Source of the DNA: Nitrospira sp.
Lineage (GTDB): Bacteria; Nitrospirota; Nitrospiria; Nitrospirales; Nitrospiraceae
Direction: 5' to 3'
NCBI GenBank assembly: GCA_015709715.1
Contig: CP054184.1
Span: 1,287,001-1,351,000, forward strand
Length of the DNA stretch: 64,000 nucleotides
Shown here piece by piece: positions 14,961 to 63,342 of this stretch. Both the position numbers and the translations under genes were made by a program. Positions within the stretch are counted from its first letter, which is position 1. Every line of letters starts with the position of its first letter. The notes under the pieces are model-generated. The model was not told the origin of the DNA. It searched no databases and was given only the letters and a program-made list of their open reading frames with translations.

Positions 14961-14991
14961 GAGACAGCTAGCTGACCGAGTGGTGTAGTAA

Positions 14992-15020
14992 TTGTTTTTA
15001 CAGATTTACCCAGGTATGCT
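14992..15020 (+). promoter_or_regulatory. Probable sigma-70 promoter for the small LuxR-type gene
   Basis: A -35-like TTGTTT (14992-14997) and a -10-like TATGCT (15015-15020) are 17 bp apart, in the divergent gap between the permease gene and the LuxR-type gene at 15056. Confidence 0.4.
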
Positions 15021-15055
15021 AGGATTACTAACAGTAGAATTTGGGACACAATCTC

Positions 15056-15391
15056 ATGGCAACACGCAAACGAGTTCGGTCCAAGAAAGTTAGCGGATCC
15101 CGAAAGTCCCTCTCCCCGACCAAGCCCGCACGCACCGCGCAACCAGCCCGGACGACGAAGCCGAGCGGAAAACGGTCAGATGGGTTAACCCCCCGTCAGA
15201 AGGAAATTCTGAAACTGGTTTCGCAGGGTTACACGAACCGCGACATTGCAGGCCGGCTGGAGATCAGCGTGCGCACAGTGGAAGTGCACCGCTTCAATTT
15301 GATGCGGCGGTTGAAGGTTCGAAATGTAGCCCAGTTGCTCCGCCAGGCATTGCAACACGGCTTTCTCCCGAAAAACTTCGCATTCAAGTAA
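15056..15391 (+). CDS. Free-standing LuxR/GerE-type DNA-binding protein
   Basis: 111 aa from ATG 15056 (a TTG at 15041 is in frame but less likely). Residues 1-45 form a basic Lys/Arg/Pro/Thr-rich tail. The rest is a single LuxR-type helix-turn-helix: LTPRQKEILKLVSQGYTNRD, then ISVRTVEVHRFNLMRR and NVAQLLRQAL. No receiver or ligand-binding domain is present. The window has three more proteins of the same design (37541-37879, 38830-39153, 63058-63342). It probably binds DNA directly, but how it senses a signal is unknown. It sits between the FtsX-type permease (divergent) and pyrD (convergent). Confidence 0.85.
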   Translation: MATRKRVRSKKVSGSRKSLSPTKPARTAQPARTTKPSGKRSDGLTPRQKEILKLVSQGYTNRDIAGRLEISVRTVEVHRFNLMRRLKVRNVAQLLRQALQHGFLPKNFAFK

Positions 15392-37290: not shown

Positions 37291-37527
37291 ATGAGCGGTC
37301 AGGGTTGTTTGATTGGCGGGTGTCAGGGAAAGGTCTACGCTCCCGCGGGTACGCAGTCGATTTGTAAGGACCACTTTCTCAATTTCCTGACCTGGCGTCG
37401 ACGCCGTGGACCGCAGATGTTCCGCAAGTACGCCGCCATGACCATGGAAGAACGGGACCAGGTCGCAGCGGAGTGGCAACAGACCTTGAACACCAAAGAG
37501 TTGCCGACTCCCCTCTCGGCACTCTAG
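37291..37527 (+). CDS. Small cysteine-containing protein of unknown function
   Basis: 78 aa from ATG 37291, chosen because AGGGAGG (37277-37283) lies 7 nt upstream; ATG 37285 is too close to it. The N-terminus MSGQGCLIGGCQGKVYAP, then SICKDHFLNFL, has three Cys and one His spaced as in a small zinc site. The rest is basic and then acidic-helical. It is not a family I can name. It is divergent from the membrane protein gene at 37079. Confidence 0.65.
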   Translation: MSGQGCLIGGCQGKVYAPAGTQSICKDHFLNFLTWRRRRGPQMFRKYAAMTMEERDQVAAEWQQTLNTKELPTPLSAL

Positions 37528-37540
37528 TTGCGGCGCGCCC

Positions 37541-37879
37541 CTAGTGTTTGCCGTCGTGAGCTTCCAGAATCCTCCCCTCCAACGCCACCTTCAGAAGCTG
37601 CGCCGTATTCGAAACCCGTAGTTTCTTCATCATGTTGGACCGATGGGCTTCCGCCGTCTTGATGCTGATGCTCAAGTGTTGGGCAATGCTTCGATTGGTG
37701 TGTCCGCCCCAGATCAGCTGCAGAATTTCCCGTTCACGCGGTGTGAGATCTTCCGGTCGACGCCTGACCGACAACGTGCCCCGCACCTCCACCTCTTGAC
37801 CCTGTCGCTTCGCCGCGGCGGTCGAGTTCGTTCCTCGCCGTCCCGTCGAACTCCTCCCGCCTCTCTTGTCTGCCACCAT
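37541..37879 (-). CDS. Free-standing LuxR/GerE-type DNA-binding protein
   Basis: 112 aa. A 40-residue basic, Gly/Arg/Ser-rich tail is followed by a lone LuxR-type helix-turn-helix: LTPREREILQLIWGGHTNRS, then ISIKTAEAHRSNMMKKL and NTAQLLKVALEGR. It is most similar to the protein at 38830-39153, with near-identical recognition helices. No receiver or sensor domain is present. A ribosome binding site AGGAGA lies 6 nt before the ATG. It has a long upstream region with a sigma-54-like element (38115-38135). Confidence 0.88.
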   Translation of the reverse strand: MVADKRGGRSSTGRRGTNSTAAAKRQGQEVEVRGTLSVRRRPEDLTPREREILQLIWGGHTNRSIAQHLSISIKTAEAHRSNMMKKLRVSNTAQLLKVALEGRILEAHDGKH

Positions 37880-38291
37880 GCCGTCTCTCCTTCATGCATG
37901 CCCAGTTTCACGCCTCGCCCTGTCCAATGGAGCCGCGCATGCGCCCGACTCCCCACTGTCCTCCGGCAAACTCCCCAGGGGGTTCGCCCTACGAGGCCAA
38001 CTATTCAAACTTCAGGCCTTATCGCCGTATAGGACGGTGGCCTACAAGATCAATCAGTTATCACCTCACAGGGAAAAGAGACGAATGGAAAAACCTGTGT
38101 CAGGAGCAGGATGAGTTGTGCCAACCCTGTGCCATGACACAGTAAGATGGCGCAGGACGATGTTACGGGTGCCTACTCCGAACAGGCACGGACGGTGAGA
38201 GGACGTAGCGATGTAAGGAAGGTTGTTGGGATAGCGGGTGAATCCCTTTGGGCGCCCAGCTCAGCCTTAGGCGCGCGCGACAAGGACGACT
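37880..38291. other. Intergenic stretch, about 410 bp, no supported gene
   Basis: Between the small LuxR-type gene (start 37879) and the end of the SnoaL-like gene (38292). Short open frames here show no family likeness. It holds the 21-bp element at 38115-38135. It probably contains the leader and promoter of the LuxR-type gene, which would have an untranslated leader of about 230 nt from the element. Confidence 0.6.
38115..38135 (-). promoter_or_regulatory. Sigma-54-like element B
   Basis: Read on the minus strand, TGGCACAGGGTTGGCA (38134-38119) has a full -24 box TGGCAC and GC at the -12 position, with the required 10 bp between GG and GC. On the plus strand it shows two TGTGCCA copies 11 bp apart. 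The same 21-bp block recurs at 39620-39640 (18 of 21 identical). It could instead be a repeated regulator site. Confidence 0.45.
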
Positions 38292-38687
38292 TCAGCCCAT
38301 CACAGGGCTACCGTGGTGATGGATCATCAGCCACTCGTCGCCGATGCGTTCGAACAGATTGGTCGCCAAAACCCGGCTCTCCACGGGCTTGTCTCCCTGG
38401 CGACTGGTGAGATTTTCGGTGCAGATCACCCACCCGAGATCGCCCGCGACCTGCACCTGCACGTCGGTCAGCTCAAACTTCATGGAGAAGGTGTTGTTGA
38501 AGATCAACACCCAGGAATCACGCACGGCCGGCCAATCACTCCGCAGACTCCAGCCAGGATGGATACAGGTGACGTATTCGAGGTGTGCCCACACCTTATC
38601 CATCTGAAGCATGTCCAGACTTTCAAAGGCGGCATAAAAGGCGAGATTCGCACGGGTAATTTCTTCGATTCGTTGCTCGATCACCAT
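38292..38687 (-). CDS. SnoaL/NTF2-like fold protein
   Basis: 131 aa from ATG 38687. The sequence AFYAAFESLDMLQMDKVWAH, then HPGWSLRSDWPAVRDSW and a C-terminal MIHHHGSPV, is typical of the NTF2-like/SnoaL group, including small proteins often annotated as ketosteroid-isomerase-like. No specific substrate is indicated. It has no signal peptide. An upstream in-frame start at 38840 would add 51 residues that look random. It lies downstream of the LuxR-type gene on the same strand, with about 140 bp between them. Confidence 0.8.
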   Translation of the reverse strand: MVIEQRIEEITRANLAFYAAFESLDMLQMDKVWAHLEYVTCIHPGWSLRSDWPAVRDSWVLIFNNTFSMKFELTDVQVQVAGDLGWVICTENLTSRQGDKPVESRVLATNLFERIGDEWLMIHHHGSPVMG

Positions 38688-38829
38688 CGCCTCCGATGGT
38701 GCGGCATTGTACTGCAAACACCATCGTCGGCGCGAGTGCGATTTACAGAACGGCGGGGGTGGATCCGCGGGGAGCTGCGAGGCGGCGGGAGTGCACACTC
38801 CCGCCTGATGCAGGTCGCCGCGAATCCCG

Positions 38830-39153
38830 TCAGCTCGCATGGGTGGCGAGCAACCCCTCTTCCAGCGCCGTCTTCAACAACTGGGCGATATTGGAGACGC
38901 GCAGCTTCTTCATCATATTGGCACGATGCGCCTCGGCCGTCTTGATGCTGATCTGCAGCCGTTCCGCGATGACGCGGTTCGTCATGCCGGCCCACACCAT
39001 CTGGAGGATCTCGCGCTCGCGCGGAGTCAGCTCCTCCGGCCGCCGCTTGACGGCGACCGGCTTCACCTGCACTTGGCTCAGGCTCACGGATAATCCCGGC
39101 TGGCTCGCCGCGCGATTGCGAAAACCCTGCTCATTGTCCTCGTTCCACATCAT
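38830..39153 (-). CDS. Free-standing LuxR/GerE-type DNA-binding protein
   Basis: 107 aa from ATG 39153 (or 39150), preceded by AAGGAG. A short acidic then neutral N-terminal part is followed by LTPREREILQMVWAGMTNRV, ISIKTAEAHRANMMKKL and NIAQLLKTALEEGLLATHAS. It is a lone helix-turn-helix, closely related to 37541-37879. The 81-aa gene at 39186-39431 ends 32 nt upstream, so they are probably in one transcript. Confidence 0.88.
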   Translation of the reverse strand: MMWNEDNEQGFRNRAASQPGLSVSLSQVQVKPVAVKRRPEELTPREREILQMVWAGMTNRVIAERLQISIKTAEAHRANMMKKLRVSNIAQLLKTALEEGLLATHAS

Positions 39154-39185: not shown

Positions 39186-39431
39186 TCACCGCTCGGGGTT
39201 CGGCAGCGCGGGGGTCATGCTCCGGAGGTCTTGCAGATATCCCAACACCGCTTCGATGGCGCGGGCCCGTTCCCGCCAAGTGCCTTGCGACAATCCCGCA
39301 AGATCCACCCAATATCCATCCACCTTTTCCCTGACCACCAATCGATCATACGGTCCATGGGCCGAGGGCTGGATGCTCAGAAGAAATTCCCGATCGGTCC
39401 CATTCGATAACAGGAACCCTTTGACGTCCAT
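39186..39431 (-). CDS. Small protein of unknown function
   Basis: 81 aa from ATG 39431, chosen because AGGAGG lies 6 nt upstream; an earlier in-frame start at 39458 is less likely. The sequence MDVKGFLLSNGTDREFLLSI, then REKVDGYWVDLAGLSQGTWR, suggests a compact soluble domain. I do not recognise the family. It lies between an NtrC-type regulator and a small LuxR-type gene. The upstream region carries element A (39620-39640). Confidence 0.65.
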   Translation of the reverse strand: MDVKGFLLSNGTDREFLLSIQPSAHGPYDRLVVREKVDGYWVDLAGLSQGTWRERARAIEAVLGYLQDLRSMTPALPNPER

Positions 39432-39619
39432 GCTACGCCTCCTGCCGACGGTATCCAACGCCGATCTCGGTCACCCCGTCTTCACACGCTCACGCCCCTT
39501 GGTGATATCAAAGATCGTGCCATTCGATCGGGAAGCGAGACGATGTTTGAAAATCAAGGCAGTTGGCGATCGCACGGCGCAAACCACGGGGACTCGTCGT
39601 CAAACTCATGGCAGGAAGT

Positions 39620-39640
39620 GTTGTGTCACACCTGTGCCAT
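39620..39640 (-). promoter_or_regulatory. Sigma-54-like element A
   Basis: On the minus strand it reads TGGCACAGGTGTGACA (39639-39624). The -24 box TGGCAC is complete, but the -12 position has AC instead of GC. It is 18 of 21 bases identical to element B and lies about 190 bp upstream of the 81-aa gene. The NtrC-family gene ends at 39705, just upstream. Confidence 0.35.
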
Positions 39641-39704: not shown

Positions 39705-41111
39705 TCAGGTTAGGGGCTCGAGTGGTTGGTCGCTGATCGAATCGGCCGGGTCGAAGATGTCGTACTCGGCCAACCGCCGATAGAAAGTCCGGCGGCTCAT
39801 GCCCAGCAATCGGGCGGCTTCGGACCGGTTTCCGCCCGTTTGTCGAAGCGCCCCCATCATGCGAGTTCGTTCATCTTGTCGCTGCAGTGGAATAAACGCG
39901 GTCCCGGTCGCAGGGTTGCGAATCTCCGCCGGCAAATCCTCGACCATCAGGACCGAGCCTTTGCAATGGATCATGGCCGATTCCACCGCACTCTTGAGTT
40001 CACGGACATTGCCGGGCCAGGCGTAGGTCACCAACACCTGCAACGCCTCCTGGCTGACCTGATGGACCGGCTTCTCCATCACCGACCGGAATTGCCCCAG
40101 GAATGCATGCACCAAATAAGGAATGTCGTCCGGTCGCTCCCGTAGGGGCGTGAGGTGCAGGCGGGCCACCTTGATGCGATACAGCAGATCCTTCCGGAAG
40201 GTTCCCTGCTCCATATCCTCCAGCAGATTGTGGTGGGTGGCGGCCAGCACCCGTACATCGACCTTCCGCGGCCTCGACTCCCCTAAGCGTGTCACCTCTC
40301 GCTCCTGCAACACCCGAAGCAGGCTGGTTTGGACCGCGAAGGAAATATCGCCGATTTCATCCAGAAAGATGGTCCCGCCCTCGGCTGCCTCGAAGACCCC
40401 TTGCTGGTTGTCGATCGCCCCCGTAAAGGCGCCCTTCTTGTGGCCGAAGAGTTGGCTGCCGAGGATCGAGTCAGTAAATCCCGCACAGTTCACGGCCAGG
40501 AAGGGCTGGGACGCTCGTCGACTGGAGAGGTGAATCGCCCGTGCCACCAGTTCCTTGCCGGTGCCCGTCTCCCCCTCGATCAACACCGTGGCATCCACTG
40601 CCGCAACCCTCTGAATGTCTGCATAGAGGGCCATCATCGCCTGACTCCGGCCGATCAAGTCGTGGAACTTACCCTGATCAGCCAGTTGAGACTGCAGGAC
40701 CTGCGCGTGGTCCTCCGCGGCAAACCGACGCCGAACGTTTTCGACCCACTGTTCGGCGATCGTCAGCCGCAACTTCAGAAACTCGATTCCGACCGGCTTG
40801 ACCAAGTAGTCGTTGACGCCGGCCTGGAGTGCCGCGCGCAGGGACTCCGGTGAATCGTGCGCGGTGATCATCACGATGACGCAACGTTCGCCGCCGGAGC
40901 TGGACCGTATGTTCTGGCACAATTGGAGACCGTCGATATGGCTGCCGCGCAATTCCCAGTCGAGCAGCACCAGTTCATGGGGCCGATGGGCGAAGGCCTC
41001 CCATGCCGAATCGCCGTCGGCGCAGGCCGTCACGTCATGGCCGCGCGCCTGGATCACCTGCTCGAACAGCCGGCGGATATCGATATGGTCTTCCACCAGA
41101 AGCACGCGCAT
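39705..41111 (-). CDS. Sigma-54-dependent response regulator, NtrC family
   Basis: 468 aa with three domains. A receiver (about 1-120) has the phosphoacceptor Asp51 in LVLLDWELRG. An AAA+ domain (about 150-385) has Walker A GETGTGKE, the sigma-54 contact loop GAFTGA (227-232) and Walker B GGTIFLDEIGD. A C-terminal Fis-type helix-turn-helix ends NRSEAARLLGMSRRTFYRRL. It activates sigma-54 promoters after phosphorylation. The adjacent hybrid kinase (15 nt upstream) is the likely partner. Element A lies directly downstream and element B about 1.6 kb away on the same strand. Confidence 0.95.
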   Translation of the reverse strand: MRVLLVEDHIDIRRLFEQVIQARGHDVTACADGDSAWEAFAHRPHELVLLDWELRGSHIDGLQLCQNIRSSSGGERCVIVMITAHDSPESLRAALQAGVNDYLVKPVGIEFLKLRLTIAEQWVENVRRRFAAEDHAQVLQSQLADQGKFHDLIGRSQAMMALYADIQRVAAVDATVLIEGETGTGKELVARAIHLSSRRASQPFLAVNCAGFTDSILGSQLFGHKKGAFTGAIDNQQGVFEAAEGGTIFLDEIGDISFAVQTSLLRVLQEREVTRLGESRPRKVDVRVLAATHHNLLEDMEQGTFRKDLLYRIKVARLHLTPLRERPDDIPYLVHAFLGQFRSVMEKPVHQVSQEALQVLVTYAWPGNVRELKSAVESAMIHCKGSVLMVEDLPAEIRNPATGTAFIPLQRQDERTRMMGALRQTGGNRSEAARLLGMSRRTFYRRLAEYDIFDPADSISDQPLEPLT

Positions 41112-41126
41112 ATGACGCTCACCGCA

Positions 41127-44100
41127 CTAGATAAACACGACCTGCAGCCGGTCCAGATAACGAGTCAAGGAGTCGATCGTCGCCTGGATTTCAGCCCCGT
41201 TCCCATGCAACGCCGCGGCCTCCAACGTATGCCCAAAGACGCTGATGGCCATCAAGCCGTAGGTCCCTCCCGCTCCCTTGATACCGTGACCGATGGCACG
41301 GATCTGCTCGAAGTCTTGAACGGCCAACGCCTCCGCGAGTTGCGAGAGGTCTTGCCGTCGATGCGCGAGAAATCCCGGCATGAGACTTTCAAACTCCGCG
41401 CTGACCTGTAAGACCACCGGTTCGGCATGGAACTCTGCGTTGAATCGGCCTGCCAGAGAGGCCGTCTGCGCATAGAGCTGAATCGCTTCCAACAGCCGCG
41501 CCTTGCGGATCGGCTTCGTCAAGTGCGCCGTGCAGCCGGCGGACAGGCTCCGCTGAATCTCCCCCTGCAAGGCATTGGCCGTCAACGCGAGAATCGGAAC
41601 CGGAGGACGACCCTGCGCACGTTCCCAAGCCCTAATGGCCTTGGTGGCGCTGTACCCATCCAGGACCGGCATTTGGATATCCATGAGCACCAGATCATAG
41701 GCCCCCCGTGTGAACATCTCAACCGCCACCTGGCCGTTCGGCGCCGTGTCCACCCGATGGGGCGTGGATCGGAAATAAAACTCGATCATACGGCGGTTGT
41801 CGACGAAGTCTTCGGCCAACAGGAGGCGTAACCCGCCCGCACCGTTCGCGGAAGCCCCGGTCTGCGGCGACCGCGACTCCGCCTCATACTCCGGGGCCTT
41901 GCCGATCGCCGCCATCATCCCGTTGAAGAGATCGGAACGCCGGAACGGCTTCGTGAGATACCGCACGATTCCACTCTCGCGGGCCCGCATCTGATCGCCC
42001 GCCCGCCGCTCCGAAGTCAACATGATGATCGCCGGGGCCGCGAATCCTGGTGTCCGGGCGATGGTATCGGCCACCTGCCATCCGCTCATCTTCGGCATCC
42101 GCACGTCCAAAATCACCAGCCGGTAGGGCATGCCCGCCTGAGCGGCCCGCGACAGCTCCATCAACGCCTCCTCGCCGCCGGGCGCTTCCGCGGCGGGAAT
42201 TCCCCAGCCCATCAGGGTCTCGCGAACGATCAGGCGATTCGTCGCGTTGTCGTCGACGATCAAGGTGCGCAACCCCGCGAGCTGTTCCCATTGCGCGGGC
42301 GGAGTCGAGCCGGACGGTTGGGCCGGAACCGCGAACTTGGCGGTCAGCCGAAAGGTGCTTCCCTTGCTCACCTCGCTCGCGACCTCGATCTTGCCGCCCA
42401 TCCGTTCGATCAGTCGCCGGGAAATCGTCAAGCCGAGACCCGTCCCGCTGTATTGTCGCGTGATCGACGAATCGACTTGGGTGAAGCGCTCGAAAATGGC
42501 GTGCAATTTCTCCGGCGGAATCCCGATGCCCGTATCCCGAATAGTGAAGAGGAGATGGCCCGGCCCGTCGTCGTCGGGATTGCGCTCCACCCGCAACACG
42601 ACTTCGCCTTCTTCCGTGAACTTCACGGCATTGCCCAACAGATTGAGCAGAACCTGCCGTAAGCGGTTGGGGTCGCCTATCAGCGAGGTCGGCACATCCG
42701 GCTGAATCTGGTAGGCCAACTCCAGATCCTTTTCCATGGCGCGCACGGCGACCAGCTCGGCGGCCCGCTGGACCAGATCGTTCAGATCGAATTCGACGAG
42801 GTCCAAATCGAGATGCCCGGCCTCGATTTTCGACAGGTCGAGCACATCGTTGATCAAGCTCAGCAGGTTGCTGCCGGCATCGCGGAAGATCTCGACATAT
42901 TCCCGTTGATCCTCGCTGAGCGGCGTCTCCAGCAGCAGGTCGGCCATGCCGACGATGGCGTTCATCGGCGTGCGAATCTCGTGGCTCATCGTCGCCAGAA
43001 AATCGCTTTTGGCCCGATTGGCGGCTTCGGCCGCTTCTTTGGCCATCGTCAAGGCGGCTTCGGCTTCTTGACGCTGTTTCGCTTCGTAGGCCAGGGTCAC
43101 CAGGTTGCCTATCGAGGTGGCAAATTGTGTTTCTTCGGGACTCCATTCCCGCGCGTCCCCGCCCCGCTCGTGGCAGACGACGCCCGCCAGTTGACCGCCG
43201 AAAAAGATGGGCACATCCAGGAGCGAAGTGATTTCCAACTCCCGCAAGTACGGCAGGAGCAGTTCGCGGGTTCTCGGATCGCGCACGGCATCGTGCGCAT
43301 CGACGACCTGCTCCTGCAGCAGTTCCGCCAGATATCGCGGATACTGCGCCACGTAGAGGCGCTGCCCTGTGGAGTGCCGCCCAGGCCCGCGTTCATATAA
43401 CTCGGCGCAGTCCAACGTCTCCCCACTCCGATCCAACAGCCAGACGCTGGCCCGATCCGCCGCCAAAACCTTGGCCGAGGTTTCCATCAATTCTTCCAAG
43501 GCCGCCTGCCAGTCTCCGGACCCGATGTGCTCGCTCTTCGTGAGGCGCATCAAGGCGTCCTGGTGCGCCTGCAATACCGCCTGGCTACGCGACAGGGCCG
43601 CCTCCGCTTCCTTGCGGCGTGTAATGTCCAGCACCAGCGTCAGCAGACAATCCTCATGTCGTAGAGAGACGGGTTCGACGTTGAATAGTCCGTGCCGGAC
43701 CTCGCCGCTTTTGGTGCGGAATTCTTTTTCCAGGTTGCGCAGGAAGCCGTCGCGCCGAAGCAGATCCGCCAACTGCCGGCGATCCTCGGGATTCACCCAA
43801 ATCCCGACATCCAATGAAGACAACCCGACCAGTTCTTCGCGCTGGAAGCCCGAGATACGCATGAAGGCTTCATTCACATCCAGCACACGTCCGTCTTCCA
43901 ACCGGCTGATCGCCATTCCCGCCGGACTGGCATGAAACGCTTTGGAGAACTGCTCTTCGCTTTCCTGCAGCGCCAGTTCCACCTGTTTCCGTTCCGTGGT
44001 GTCGCGGGCCACCACCTGAAACCCGGTGACCTTCTCCCCCTCCAGCAACAGTTGCGCATGTTGCCCCAGCCAGACCTCGCGCCCATCCTTGGTCACGACC

Positions 44101-45152
44101 GGCACCTCGTACACCGAACGAGGTTTGCGCCGTACGAACTGCCGGCCATAGAAACGTTCGGCCCGTGACCGCCAGTGCGGCTGCACGATCTCGAGATAGT
44201 GCCGCCCCAGCAATTCCTCGGGCAGATACCCCAAGACCCGCAGGGATGTGGGGTTGCAGTAGACGAACCGTCCGTCGGCATCGGTGCGATAGATGATATC
44301 GCCCACATGCTCCACCAACCGACGGTACCGCTCCTCGCTGTCTCGCAACGCTTCTTCTGCCTGTTTTCGCGCCGTCACATCTAAATGGATGCCGCTCATC
44401 CGCGCCATGCGCCCCTGCTCATCGCGCACGCCGCCACCGAAGGCGGCGATCCAGCGATAGGACCCATCAGCATGGAGGAGACGGTGGTCGAGGCGATATT
44501 GTTTGCTCTGTCCGTCCCGATGGAGGGCTACGGCAGCCAATGCCCGCGCCCGATCATCCGGATGAAGACGAGACGCCCAGGCGGCAATGGTCGGCTCGAT
44601 CTCGTGAGCGGCACAGCCGAGTTGGCCTTTCCAACGAGGAGAATAAAAGGCAGCCCCCGTCGTGAGCTCCCACTCCCAGACTCCGACATGCGCCCCTTCC
44701 GCCGCCAGTTCGAATCGTTCCTGGCTTTCGCGCAAGGCCGTTTCCACCCGTTTCTGTTCGGACAACTGCAAAGTCAGTCGCTCGTTGGCCGCAATCAGGC
44801 TCCTCGTCTGCTCGGAGACCTGCTCTTCCAAGCGGCTATTCGCCACCCGCAAGGCAACCTCCGTCTTCTGCTGTCGAGAGAGCAGGCCGGTGGCCCCCCA
44901 CACCATCGCCACGCCAAGGAGACGGTTGACGAGGGCCACTCCAGGCTCGACGCCCTGAGGAGACCCGAGAAACCCGACCGCCATCAACAGGGTCACCGAC
45001 GATGCATACCCCACCAGAACCTTGGGCTTAGCCTGTAACGCCGTCATCCAGAGCGGCAGGAGGTAGAGGAGCCAGACAGCATGGCCTAAGGGCGTCGCCC
45101 AATCCAGTGCAAAGACCACCGTGGTCACTAACAGGATCGCAGTACACCACAT
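41127..45152 (-). CDS. Very large hybrid histidine kinase with three PAS, GAF, two receivers and Hpt
   Basis: 1341 aa from ATG 45152; TTG/other starts up to 45254 would add 34 residues. Order: about four membrane spans (1-90), coiled coil, three PAS/PAC domains (about 150-525), GAF (about 545-690), DHp with His724 in FLATMSHEIRTPMNAIVGMA, HATPase, receiver 1 (Asp1016 in LVILDVRMPKM), receiver 2 (Asp1158 in LVLMDIQMPVLDG) and a C-terminal Hpt (His1289 in IGHGIKGAGGTYG). A full four-step phosphorelay is built into one protein. The NtrC-type regulator 15 nt downstream is the likely final acceptor. Signal unknown. Confidence 0.93.
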   Translation of the reverse strand: MWCTAILLVTTVVFALDWATPLGHAVWLLYLLPLWMTALQAKPKVLVGYASSVTLLMAVGFLGSPQGVEPGVALVNRLLGVAMVWGATGLLSRQQKTEVALRVANSRLEEQVSEQTRSLIAANERLTLQLSEQKRVETALRESQERFELAAEGAHVGVWEWELTTGAAFYSPRWKGQLGCAAHEIEPTIAAWASRLHPDDRARALAAVALHRDGQSKQYRLDHRLLHADGSYRWIAAFGGGVRDEQGRMARMSGIHLDVTARKQAEEALRDSEERYRRLVEHVGDIIYRTDADGRFVYCNPTSLRVLGYLPEELLGRHYLEIVQPHWRSRAERFYGRQFVRRKPRSVYEVPVVTKDGREVWLGQHAQLLLEGEKVTGFQVVARDTTERKQVELALQESEEQFSKAFHASPAGMAISRLEDGRVLDVNEAFMRISGFQREELVGLSSLDVGIWVNPEDRRQLADLLRRDGFLRNLEKEFRTKSGEVRHGLFNVEPVSLRHEDCLLTLVLDITRRKEAEAALSRSQAVLQAHQDALMRLTKSEHIGSGDWQAALEELMETSAKVLAADRASVWLLDRSGETLDCAELYERGPGRHSTGQRLYVAQYPRYLAELLQEQVVDAHDAVRDPRTRELLLPYLRELEITSLLDVPIFFGGQLAGVVCHERGGDAREWSPEETQFATSIGNLVTLAYEAKQRQEAEAALTMAKEAAEAANRAKSDFLATMSHEIRTPMNAIVGMADLLLETPLSEDQREYVEIFRDAGSNLLSLINDVLDLSKIEAGHLDLDLVEFDLNDLVQRAAELVAVRAMEKDLELAYQIQPDVPTSLIGDPNRLRQVLLNLLGNAVKFTEEGEVVLRVERNPDDDGPGHLLFTIRDTGIGIPPEKLHAIFERFTQVDSSITRQYSGTGLGLTISRRLIERMGGKIEVASEVSKGSTFRLTAKFAVPAQPSGSTPPAQWEQLAGLRTLIVDDNATNRLIVRETLMGWGIPAAEAPGGEEALMELSRAAQAGMPYRLVILDVRMPKMSGWQVADTIARTPGFAAPAIIMLTSERRAGDQMRARESGIVRYLTKPFRRSDLFNGMMAAIGKAPEYEAESRSPQTGASANGAGGLRLLLAEDFVDNRRMIEFYFRSTPHRVDTAPNGQVAVEMFTRGAYDLVLMDIQMPVLDGYSATKAIRAWERAQGRPPVPILALTANALQGEIQRSLSAGCTAHLTKPIRKARLLEAIQLYAQTASLAGRFNAEFHAEPVVLQVSAEFESLMPGFLAHRRQDLSQLAEALAVQDFEQIRAIGHGIKGAGGTYGLMAISVFGHTLEAAALHGNGAEIQATIDSLTRYLDRLQVVFI

Positions 45153-45397
45153 CGACTTGCGTCCTTCCTTTCTCGCCCGCCAAGCGATCCGACTGGATTC
45201 CCGACACGCTGCCGACAGAATAGGCCCGCGCCGAAAACCGGTAAAGTAGGCCAATCGGCCCTAGGCGGCTCTAGCGCCAGCCTCGTTCCTGTCCGTCCTA
45301 CGGGCAGAAACCTGGGTCTGCTCAGATGAAATGAGGAAAATAGGAGGATCGAGAGAACTTTTCAACCATGGAGCCAAAGAACGATGGGAAGCCGGAC

Positions 45398-63057: not shown

Positions 63058-63342
63058 ATGCCTATGTCCAAGCCTCCTCGTCGACTCAAATCAGCACCTC
63101 GAAAGGTGCTCGCGGCTCCCCTGGTGCCCACGCAGCGGCCGATCGAGCTGACCAAACGCGAACAAACCATTCTCAACCACGTCTGGCTGGGGGCGCAGAA
63201 CCAAACCATCGCCGGCGAGTTGCATATCAGCGTGCGCACGGTGGAAGCACACCGGGCCATGATCATGCGGAAATTCGGCGTGACGAACGTCGCGCAGCTG
63301 CTCCGATCGGCCTTACTGGGAGGGTTCCTGCAATTGCGCTAG
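63058..63342 (+). CDS. Free-standing LuxR/GerE-type DNA-binding protein
   Basis: 94 aa; ATG 63064 is an equally possible start. A basic Lys/Arg/Pro-rich N-terminal tail of about 28 residues is followed by LTKREQTILNHVWLGAQNQT, ISVRTVEAHRAMIMRKF and NVAQLLRSALLGGFLQLR. It is the fourth small protein of this design in the window. It closes the second signalling cluster, 186 bp after the response regulator. Confidence 0.88.
   Translation: MPMSKPPRRLKSAPRKVLAAPLVPTQRPIELTKREQTILNHVWLGAQNQTIAGELHISVRTVEAHRAMIMRKFGVTNVAQLLRSALLGGFLQLR

Follow-up and report, generated by a model that had tools for sequence, protein, structure and literature searches.

Comparison of sequences indicates that stand-alone GerE proteins, i.e. 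LuxR-type helix-turn-helix (HTH) proteins lacking a receiver or ligand domain, form a family maintained through the order containing Nitrospira. We consider it fairly probable that these proteins are constitutive DNA binders whose activity is set by their synthesis, and that they relay the signal of a bEBP/sigma-54 circuit. The regulation of Nitrospira, which drive nitrite oxidation worldwide, is little known. Sigma-54-dependent regulators have been indicated near the nxr genes (PMC6606698). If the proposed reading is true, the cascade, in which a hybrid kinase acts by way of an activator on the supply of a lone GerE protein, would constitute a concrete regulatory circuit of Nitrospira with a new small partner, and would provide a clear case of response-regulator output domains long kept without receivers.

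Stand-alone GerE proteins in the window and the genome

The window, i.e. the whole stretch of 64,000 nucleotides analysed, comprises bases 1287001-1351000 of a closed 4.16 Mb chromosome, whose named close relatives are nearly all Nitrospira or other Nitrospirales. The earlier note had placed four lone LuxR-type proteins in it, and open reading frames of 111, 112, 107 and 94 aa were indeed found there, labelled C (15056-15391, + strand), A (37541-37879, - strand), B and F (63058-63342, + strand), respectively. The start of B was set at the second ATG (39150), since ATGTGGA does not vary among relatives, giving a protein of 106 aa (38830-39150, - strand) with a GerE domain and orthologs. Each of the four contains one GerE domain (PF00196; 61-70 bits, cut-off 23.5), and the Pfam search detected in them neither the N-terminal receiver of NarL/FixJ-type regulators nor the autoinducer-binding domain of LuxR solos nor any other ligand domain. 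They all have the HTH-only build with a short tail that marks GerE-like stand-alone regulators. The motifs that the earlier note described are genuinely common to them; [KR]T[AV]E[AV]HR has four occurrences in the six-frame translation of the window, in exactly these four proteins.

The search of the genome with PF00196 gave 27 matches. Two were an ECF sigma factor and a transposase, and the other 25 comprised six lone and 19 longer proteins. The two lone proteins encoded outside the window are D (C1:2581144) and E (C1:2121441); the probability that four of the six would fall within any 64 kb by chance is about 0.0004. No in-frame ATG or GTG precedes the domain of E in this genome, and an in-frame TAG lies just before it (L012:1471-1815; C1:2121411). 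This copy may be damaged or have an unusual start; the relatives have a normal ATG.

The proposal of the earlier note, an expanded set of lone LuxR-type HTH proteins near signalling genes, gained support. A profile built from the lone family gave its members 92-156 bits, and none of the longer GerE proteins of the genome rose above 71 bits. The best matches of each lone protein were other lone proteins, and the lone proteins formed clades distinct from the full-length regulators encoded locally. In the tree, built from 66 of these short HTH domains and tentative in its deep forks, A, B, D, E and F formed one supported clade (99/87), with A nested inside B (98/93) and F joining E (99/91), and C formed a separate clade.

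For each of the groups A, B, C, D and E, 20-21 orthologs were fetched. All were still lone, mostly in open frames too short for a receiver, and the possibility that the proteins are fragments of longer genes was thereby ruled out. Members of the lone family were present in 25/25 genus genomes searched. The mean identity of the 62-residue HTH was 0.98 for B, 0.97 for C, 0.99 for D, 0.85 for A and 0.84 for E. The median dN/dS of the HTH in groups A-E (0.007-0.06, rough ratios because dS is near saturation) points to strong purifying selection. Sampling across the phylum revealed two lone members, C-like and D-like by score and by the named loci, in further genera of the family and in a sister family, and almost none beyond these. 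C and D therefore appear to be old (order level), A, B and E to have arisen later, and F to be local; an ortholog of F, which is encoded downstream of a NarL-type kinase/regulator pair, was sought in the genus sample and was not found.

The recognition helix of groups A-E reads [ED]xHRxN, a pattern present in 0/19 longer GerE proteins of the genome, the nearest full-length helix being ETHRAQ. This bears on the suggestion of the earlier note that the lone proteins compete for, or share, the target sites of NarL-type regulators, and on the wider reading that they are competitors or dominant-negative partners acting through common sites or mixed dimers. The HTH fold is the same, several NarL-type regulators are encoded in the window, and in some relatives one conserved NarL regulator is found upstream of the gene cluster described below. 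However, the helices of A-E fit no full-length regulator of the genome, and next to A, B and E it is bEBPs, rather than NarL regulators, that are conserved. Competition for NarL sites is not favoured because the [ED]xHRxN helix is FixJ/SsrB/EsrB-like, unlike the genome's own NarL-type regulators, and we regard this explanation as very unlikely.

Basic tails, described in the earlier note as frequent in the set, were confirmed for C (very basic, net charge +13 to +18) and for D (+2 to +6) and may add nonspecific DNA affinity there. A, B and E have tails close to neutral in the majority of genomes, so a basic tail as a common family trait was ruled out. The statement that such proteins are mostly single copies elsewhere was too strong, as no second recognised domain was present in 41% of 991 actinobacterial LuxR-domain proteins, though many of these may be longer proteins (PMC3466318). 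The bEBP, promoter and small-protein context, which was overlooked in the earlier note, is the more informative part.

The kinase-activator cluster of A and B and its counterpart at E

A hybrid histidine kinase, an NtrC-type response regulator (bEBP), a small protein S, B, a SnoaL-like protein and A are encoded on one strand of the window. The kinase (41127-45254, - strand) has several PAS domains, GAF, HisKA and HATPase domains, two receivers and an Hpt domain, and the bEBP (39705-41111, - strand) comprises a receiver, an AAA+ domain with the GAFTGA motif and a Fis-type HTH. The gene order bEBP - S - B - SnoaL - S' - A - orf36310 - GcvT is repeated across the genus genomes that were fetched; the distance between B and A is larger in two genomes, and in one the fetched stretch does not show the bEBP. 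Both the hybrid kinase and the bEBP are found upstream of B in 11/12 genomes. The lineage of the window has lost S', the second S copy, ahead of A.

The whole cluster is also present in a second genus: kinase, bEBP (76% identity), S, B, SnoaL (95%), S', A, orf36310 and GcvT. This constitutes an independent test of the link.

S (39186-39431, - strand, 81 aa) represents a family of proteins about 81 aa long, in which 21 residues are invariant and the predicted structure is beta4-alpha. It occurs in at most two copies per genome, always adjoining A or B by coordinates, and outside the genus it was found in 1/46 other genomes of the family, the one that has the whole cluster. The Pfam search of S gave no match up to E 1, and the fold search with two models (pLDDT 68 and 79) gave no Foldseek match under E 0.5; the best VIA-align Z was 5.2, with a weak PUR-repeat and polo-box likeness that is not interpretable. 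Encoded directly ahead of B and A, S probably modulates its GerE partner, a role guessed from gene order because no fold match was recognised.

Two other genes of this region deserve mention. The SnoaL-like protein (38292-38687, - strand, 131 aa), encoded between B and A, has an identity of 93-96% within the genus and of about 95% to its counterpart in another genus; it is better conserved than its neighbours. A small cysteine-containing ORF (MSGQGCLIGGCQGKVYAP...) is located at 37291-37527 (+ strand), between A and the GcvT-like gene.

In 20/20 genomes E is located directly after a second bEBP gene. Among the 31 bEBPs of the genome the B-linked one is closest to the E-linked one (58% identity), the other 29 reaching 46% or less; activator and lone GerE gene were duplicated together. 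The region upstream of E contains TGTCTC/GAGACA dyads. A gene for a Ras-like small GTPase lies directly upstream of the E-linked bEBP gene (L225:6746-7288).

Promoter-like elements and the proposed relay

The element TGGCACGATCTTTGAT (39507-39522, - strand) ahead of S-B resembles a sigma-54 promoter and has the form TGGCAYGATCYTTGAT in 20/20 genomes; of the looser form TGGCAYN5TTGAT, 0.08 occurrences would be expected in the window. About 100 bp above it these 20 genomes have two TGRCACA repeats and an inverted TGYGYCA (39609-39639, - strand; TGGCACA-N4-TGACACA followed by the inverted half-site), which are candidate activator sites. The pattern is unique in the genome: with two mismatches allowed, each genome has one triple TGNCACA pattern, located at B, and a search of the own genome for a strict TGRCACA trio with a variable gap gave none.

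A related element precedes A (38004-38020, - strand). GGC[AC]-N6-TTGA was found upstream of A in 20/20 genomes, the copy of the window being degenerate (AAGGCCTGAAGTTTGAA) and the 19 relatives having GGCAYN6TTGA. Repeated TGGCACA sites (TGGCACAGGGTTGGCA, 38119-38134, - strand), also one mismatch from a sigma-54 consensus, were seen upstream of A in all genomes with long enough fetched sequence, the window included, this region being reached in only some relatives. The box CGTAGGGCGAACACCTTGGGGAGTTC (37960-38000, - strand), just downstream of the -12-like element of A, is conserved in most relatives and may serve as an operator or as part of a leader RNA.

Taken over the three groups, every upstream sequence contains a single GGC[AC]-N6-TTG[AT] (B, 20/20; A, 20/20; E, 21/21, there as GGCAY-N6-TTG[AT]), the chance being about 2.5% per sequence as estimated from base frequencies. 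The -24 half reads GGC in all sequences and TGGCAY at B in 20/20, and the -12 half reads TTGA or TTGT in all 61 and TTGC in none. The textbook -12 element of sigma-54 promoters is TTGC. The main doubt about the sigma-54 reading comes from this departure, though the -24 half and the spacing fit. GGCAY-N6-TTGA/T could instead be a binding site or a sigma-70-type element, with A, B and E otherwise controlled and the bEBP acting elsewhere; the uniform absence of TTGC agrees with this, as does the rarity of canonical-like sites in the genome, where TGGCACGNNNNTTGNW is weakly enriched (6 versus 2 in the control) and mostly not clearly ahead of genes. Against it stand the conserved -24 half and spacing, the GAFTGA activators encoded adjacently at two loci, the repeated sites upstream, and the inspection by eye of the sequence downstream of the element, in which no -10-like box was seen. 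This alternative has a minor but real chance of being correct. In the second genus only two GGCA-N6-TTG sites were found in 20 kb, just ahead of S-B and S'-A, about two being expected by chance anywhere there.

The sigma-54 reading of these elements is part of the relay, which builds on observations made in this work: the family itself, the purifying selection, the gene order, the conserved DNA elements and the co-duplication of activator and GerE genes. The prerequisites of bEBP/sigma-54 control are present, since the activator has the GAFTGA motif and the AAA+ domain and RpoN is encoded in the genome. A GerE head without a receiver or ligand domain, comparable to the output domains of FixJ, NarL and GerE, is expected to bind DNA constitutively. 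The activity of the lone proteins should therefore follow their synthesis.

A lone GerE protein would resemble the freed output half of a FixJ/NarL regulator, binding DNA as a dimer once made, so that the amount made would set the signal. The hybrid kinase is proposed to phosphorylate the adjacent NtrC-type activator, which would bind the TGNCACA sites and act on sigma-54 RNA polymerase at the -24/-12 elements ahead of S-B and S'-A. Control of the synthesis of A and B by the kinase and the bEBP is most likely direct. E would be subject to the same arrangement behind the paralogous activator, whose sites would differ (TGTCTC/GAGACA). The lone GerE proteins would then carry the signal to promoters outside the service of sigma-54. 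DNA binding, the use of sigma-54, the direction of control, the role of S and the targets are the parts of this scheme that we infer.

A more specific version is put forward only tentatively. It would treat the whole as a duplicated module, in which bEBP and sigma-54 bring about production of a stand-alone GerE protein together with a dedicated S protein of a new family that tunes it, control of synthesis and the partner together replacing the receiver.

Known systems and the loci of C and D

GerE of Bacillus subtilis is a small HTH-only protein whose synthesis is set by a cascade of sigma factors. Sigma-K and GerE are listed in this cascade (PMC517825). The lone Nitrospira proteins are similar to GerE (PDB 1FSE) in their HTH-only build and in their profile match to this structure, but differ from it in belonging to a FixJ/SsrB-like HTH subgroup, in their apparent bEBP/sigma-54 control, in having several paralogs and in the S partner. 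PedR of cyanobacteria (NF052366) is likewise a stand-alone LuxR-type HTH protein; the proteins of the window match it at 39-49 bits and so fall short of the curated cut-off, 120. PedR uses Cys80 to sense redox (PMC13421787), whereas none of the four proteins of the window contains a cysteine, the residue of the redox disulfide dimer. The LuxR solos of quorum sensing share the LuxR-type HTH but by definition have an autoinducer-binding domain (PMC4338825), which is missing here.

The closest solved structures are the output domains of FixJ and SsrB/EsrB (PDB 1X3U, 2JPC, 7VIM), whose helices EVHRAN, ETHRMN and ETHRLN resemble EAHRAN of the lone proteins. Those regulators carry receiver domains, unlike the lone proteins, and FixJ-type sites (GTAGTTTCCC; TAAGTAATTTCCCTTA) were no better represented upstream of A-E than in shuffled sequence. 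Lone LuxR-type HTH proteins as such are already known (GerE, PedR and the actinobacterial set of PMC3466318). The literature search found no study of these lone GerE proteins in Nitrospira; new, as far as this search shows, are the Nitrospira family, the S protein and the occurrence of lone GerE genes together with bEBP genes at two loci.

C and D, which are preceded by sigma-70-like promoter elements, would act outside the bEBP/sigma-54 circuit. C is transcribed divergently from an FtsX/MacB permease gene and also has a DHO dehydrogenase gene as a neighbour, flanks that are kept in 19-20 of 20 genomes; the neighbours of D are pilD and rlmB. Such unrelated neighbours and promoters would also suit the view that these are ordinary lone HTH genes left from domain loss, with unrelated local jobs, and that proximity to signalling genes reflects no common mechanism. 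That view is at odds with the strong purifying selection, the single clade of A, B, D, E and F, the co-duplication of the module and the conservation in another genus, and it appears unlikely.

The sigma-70-like promoter of C lies in a nearly invariant block of a 21-genome alignment (14987-15045, + strand; AGTAATTGTTTTTACAGATTTACCCAGgTATGCTAgGATTAC...), and this near-invariant stretch of about 60 bp exceeds the needs of a bare promoter. The gene for a type IV prepilin peptidase and a cluster of pilus genes run divergently from D (L226:7130-8385); the prepilin peptidase neighbour is kept in 20/20 relatives and offers a lead for the targets of D.
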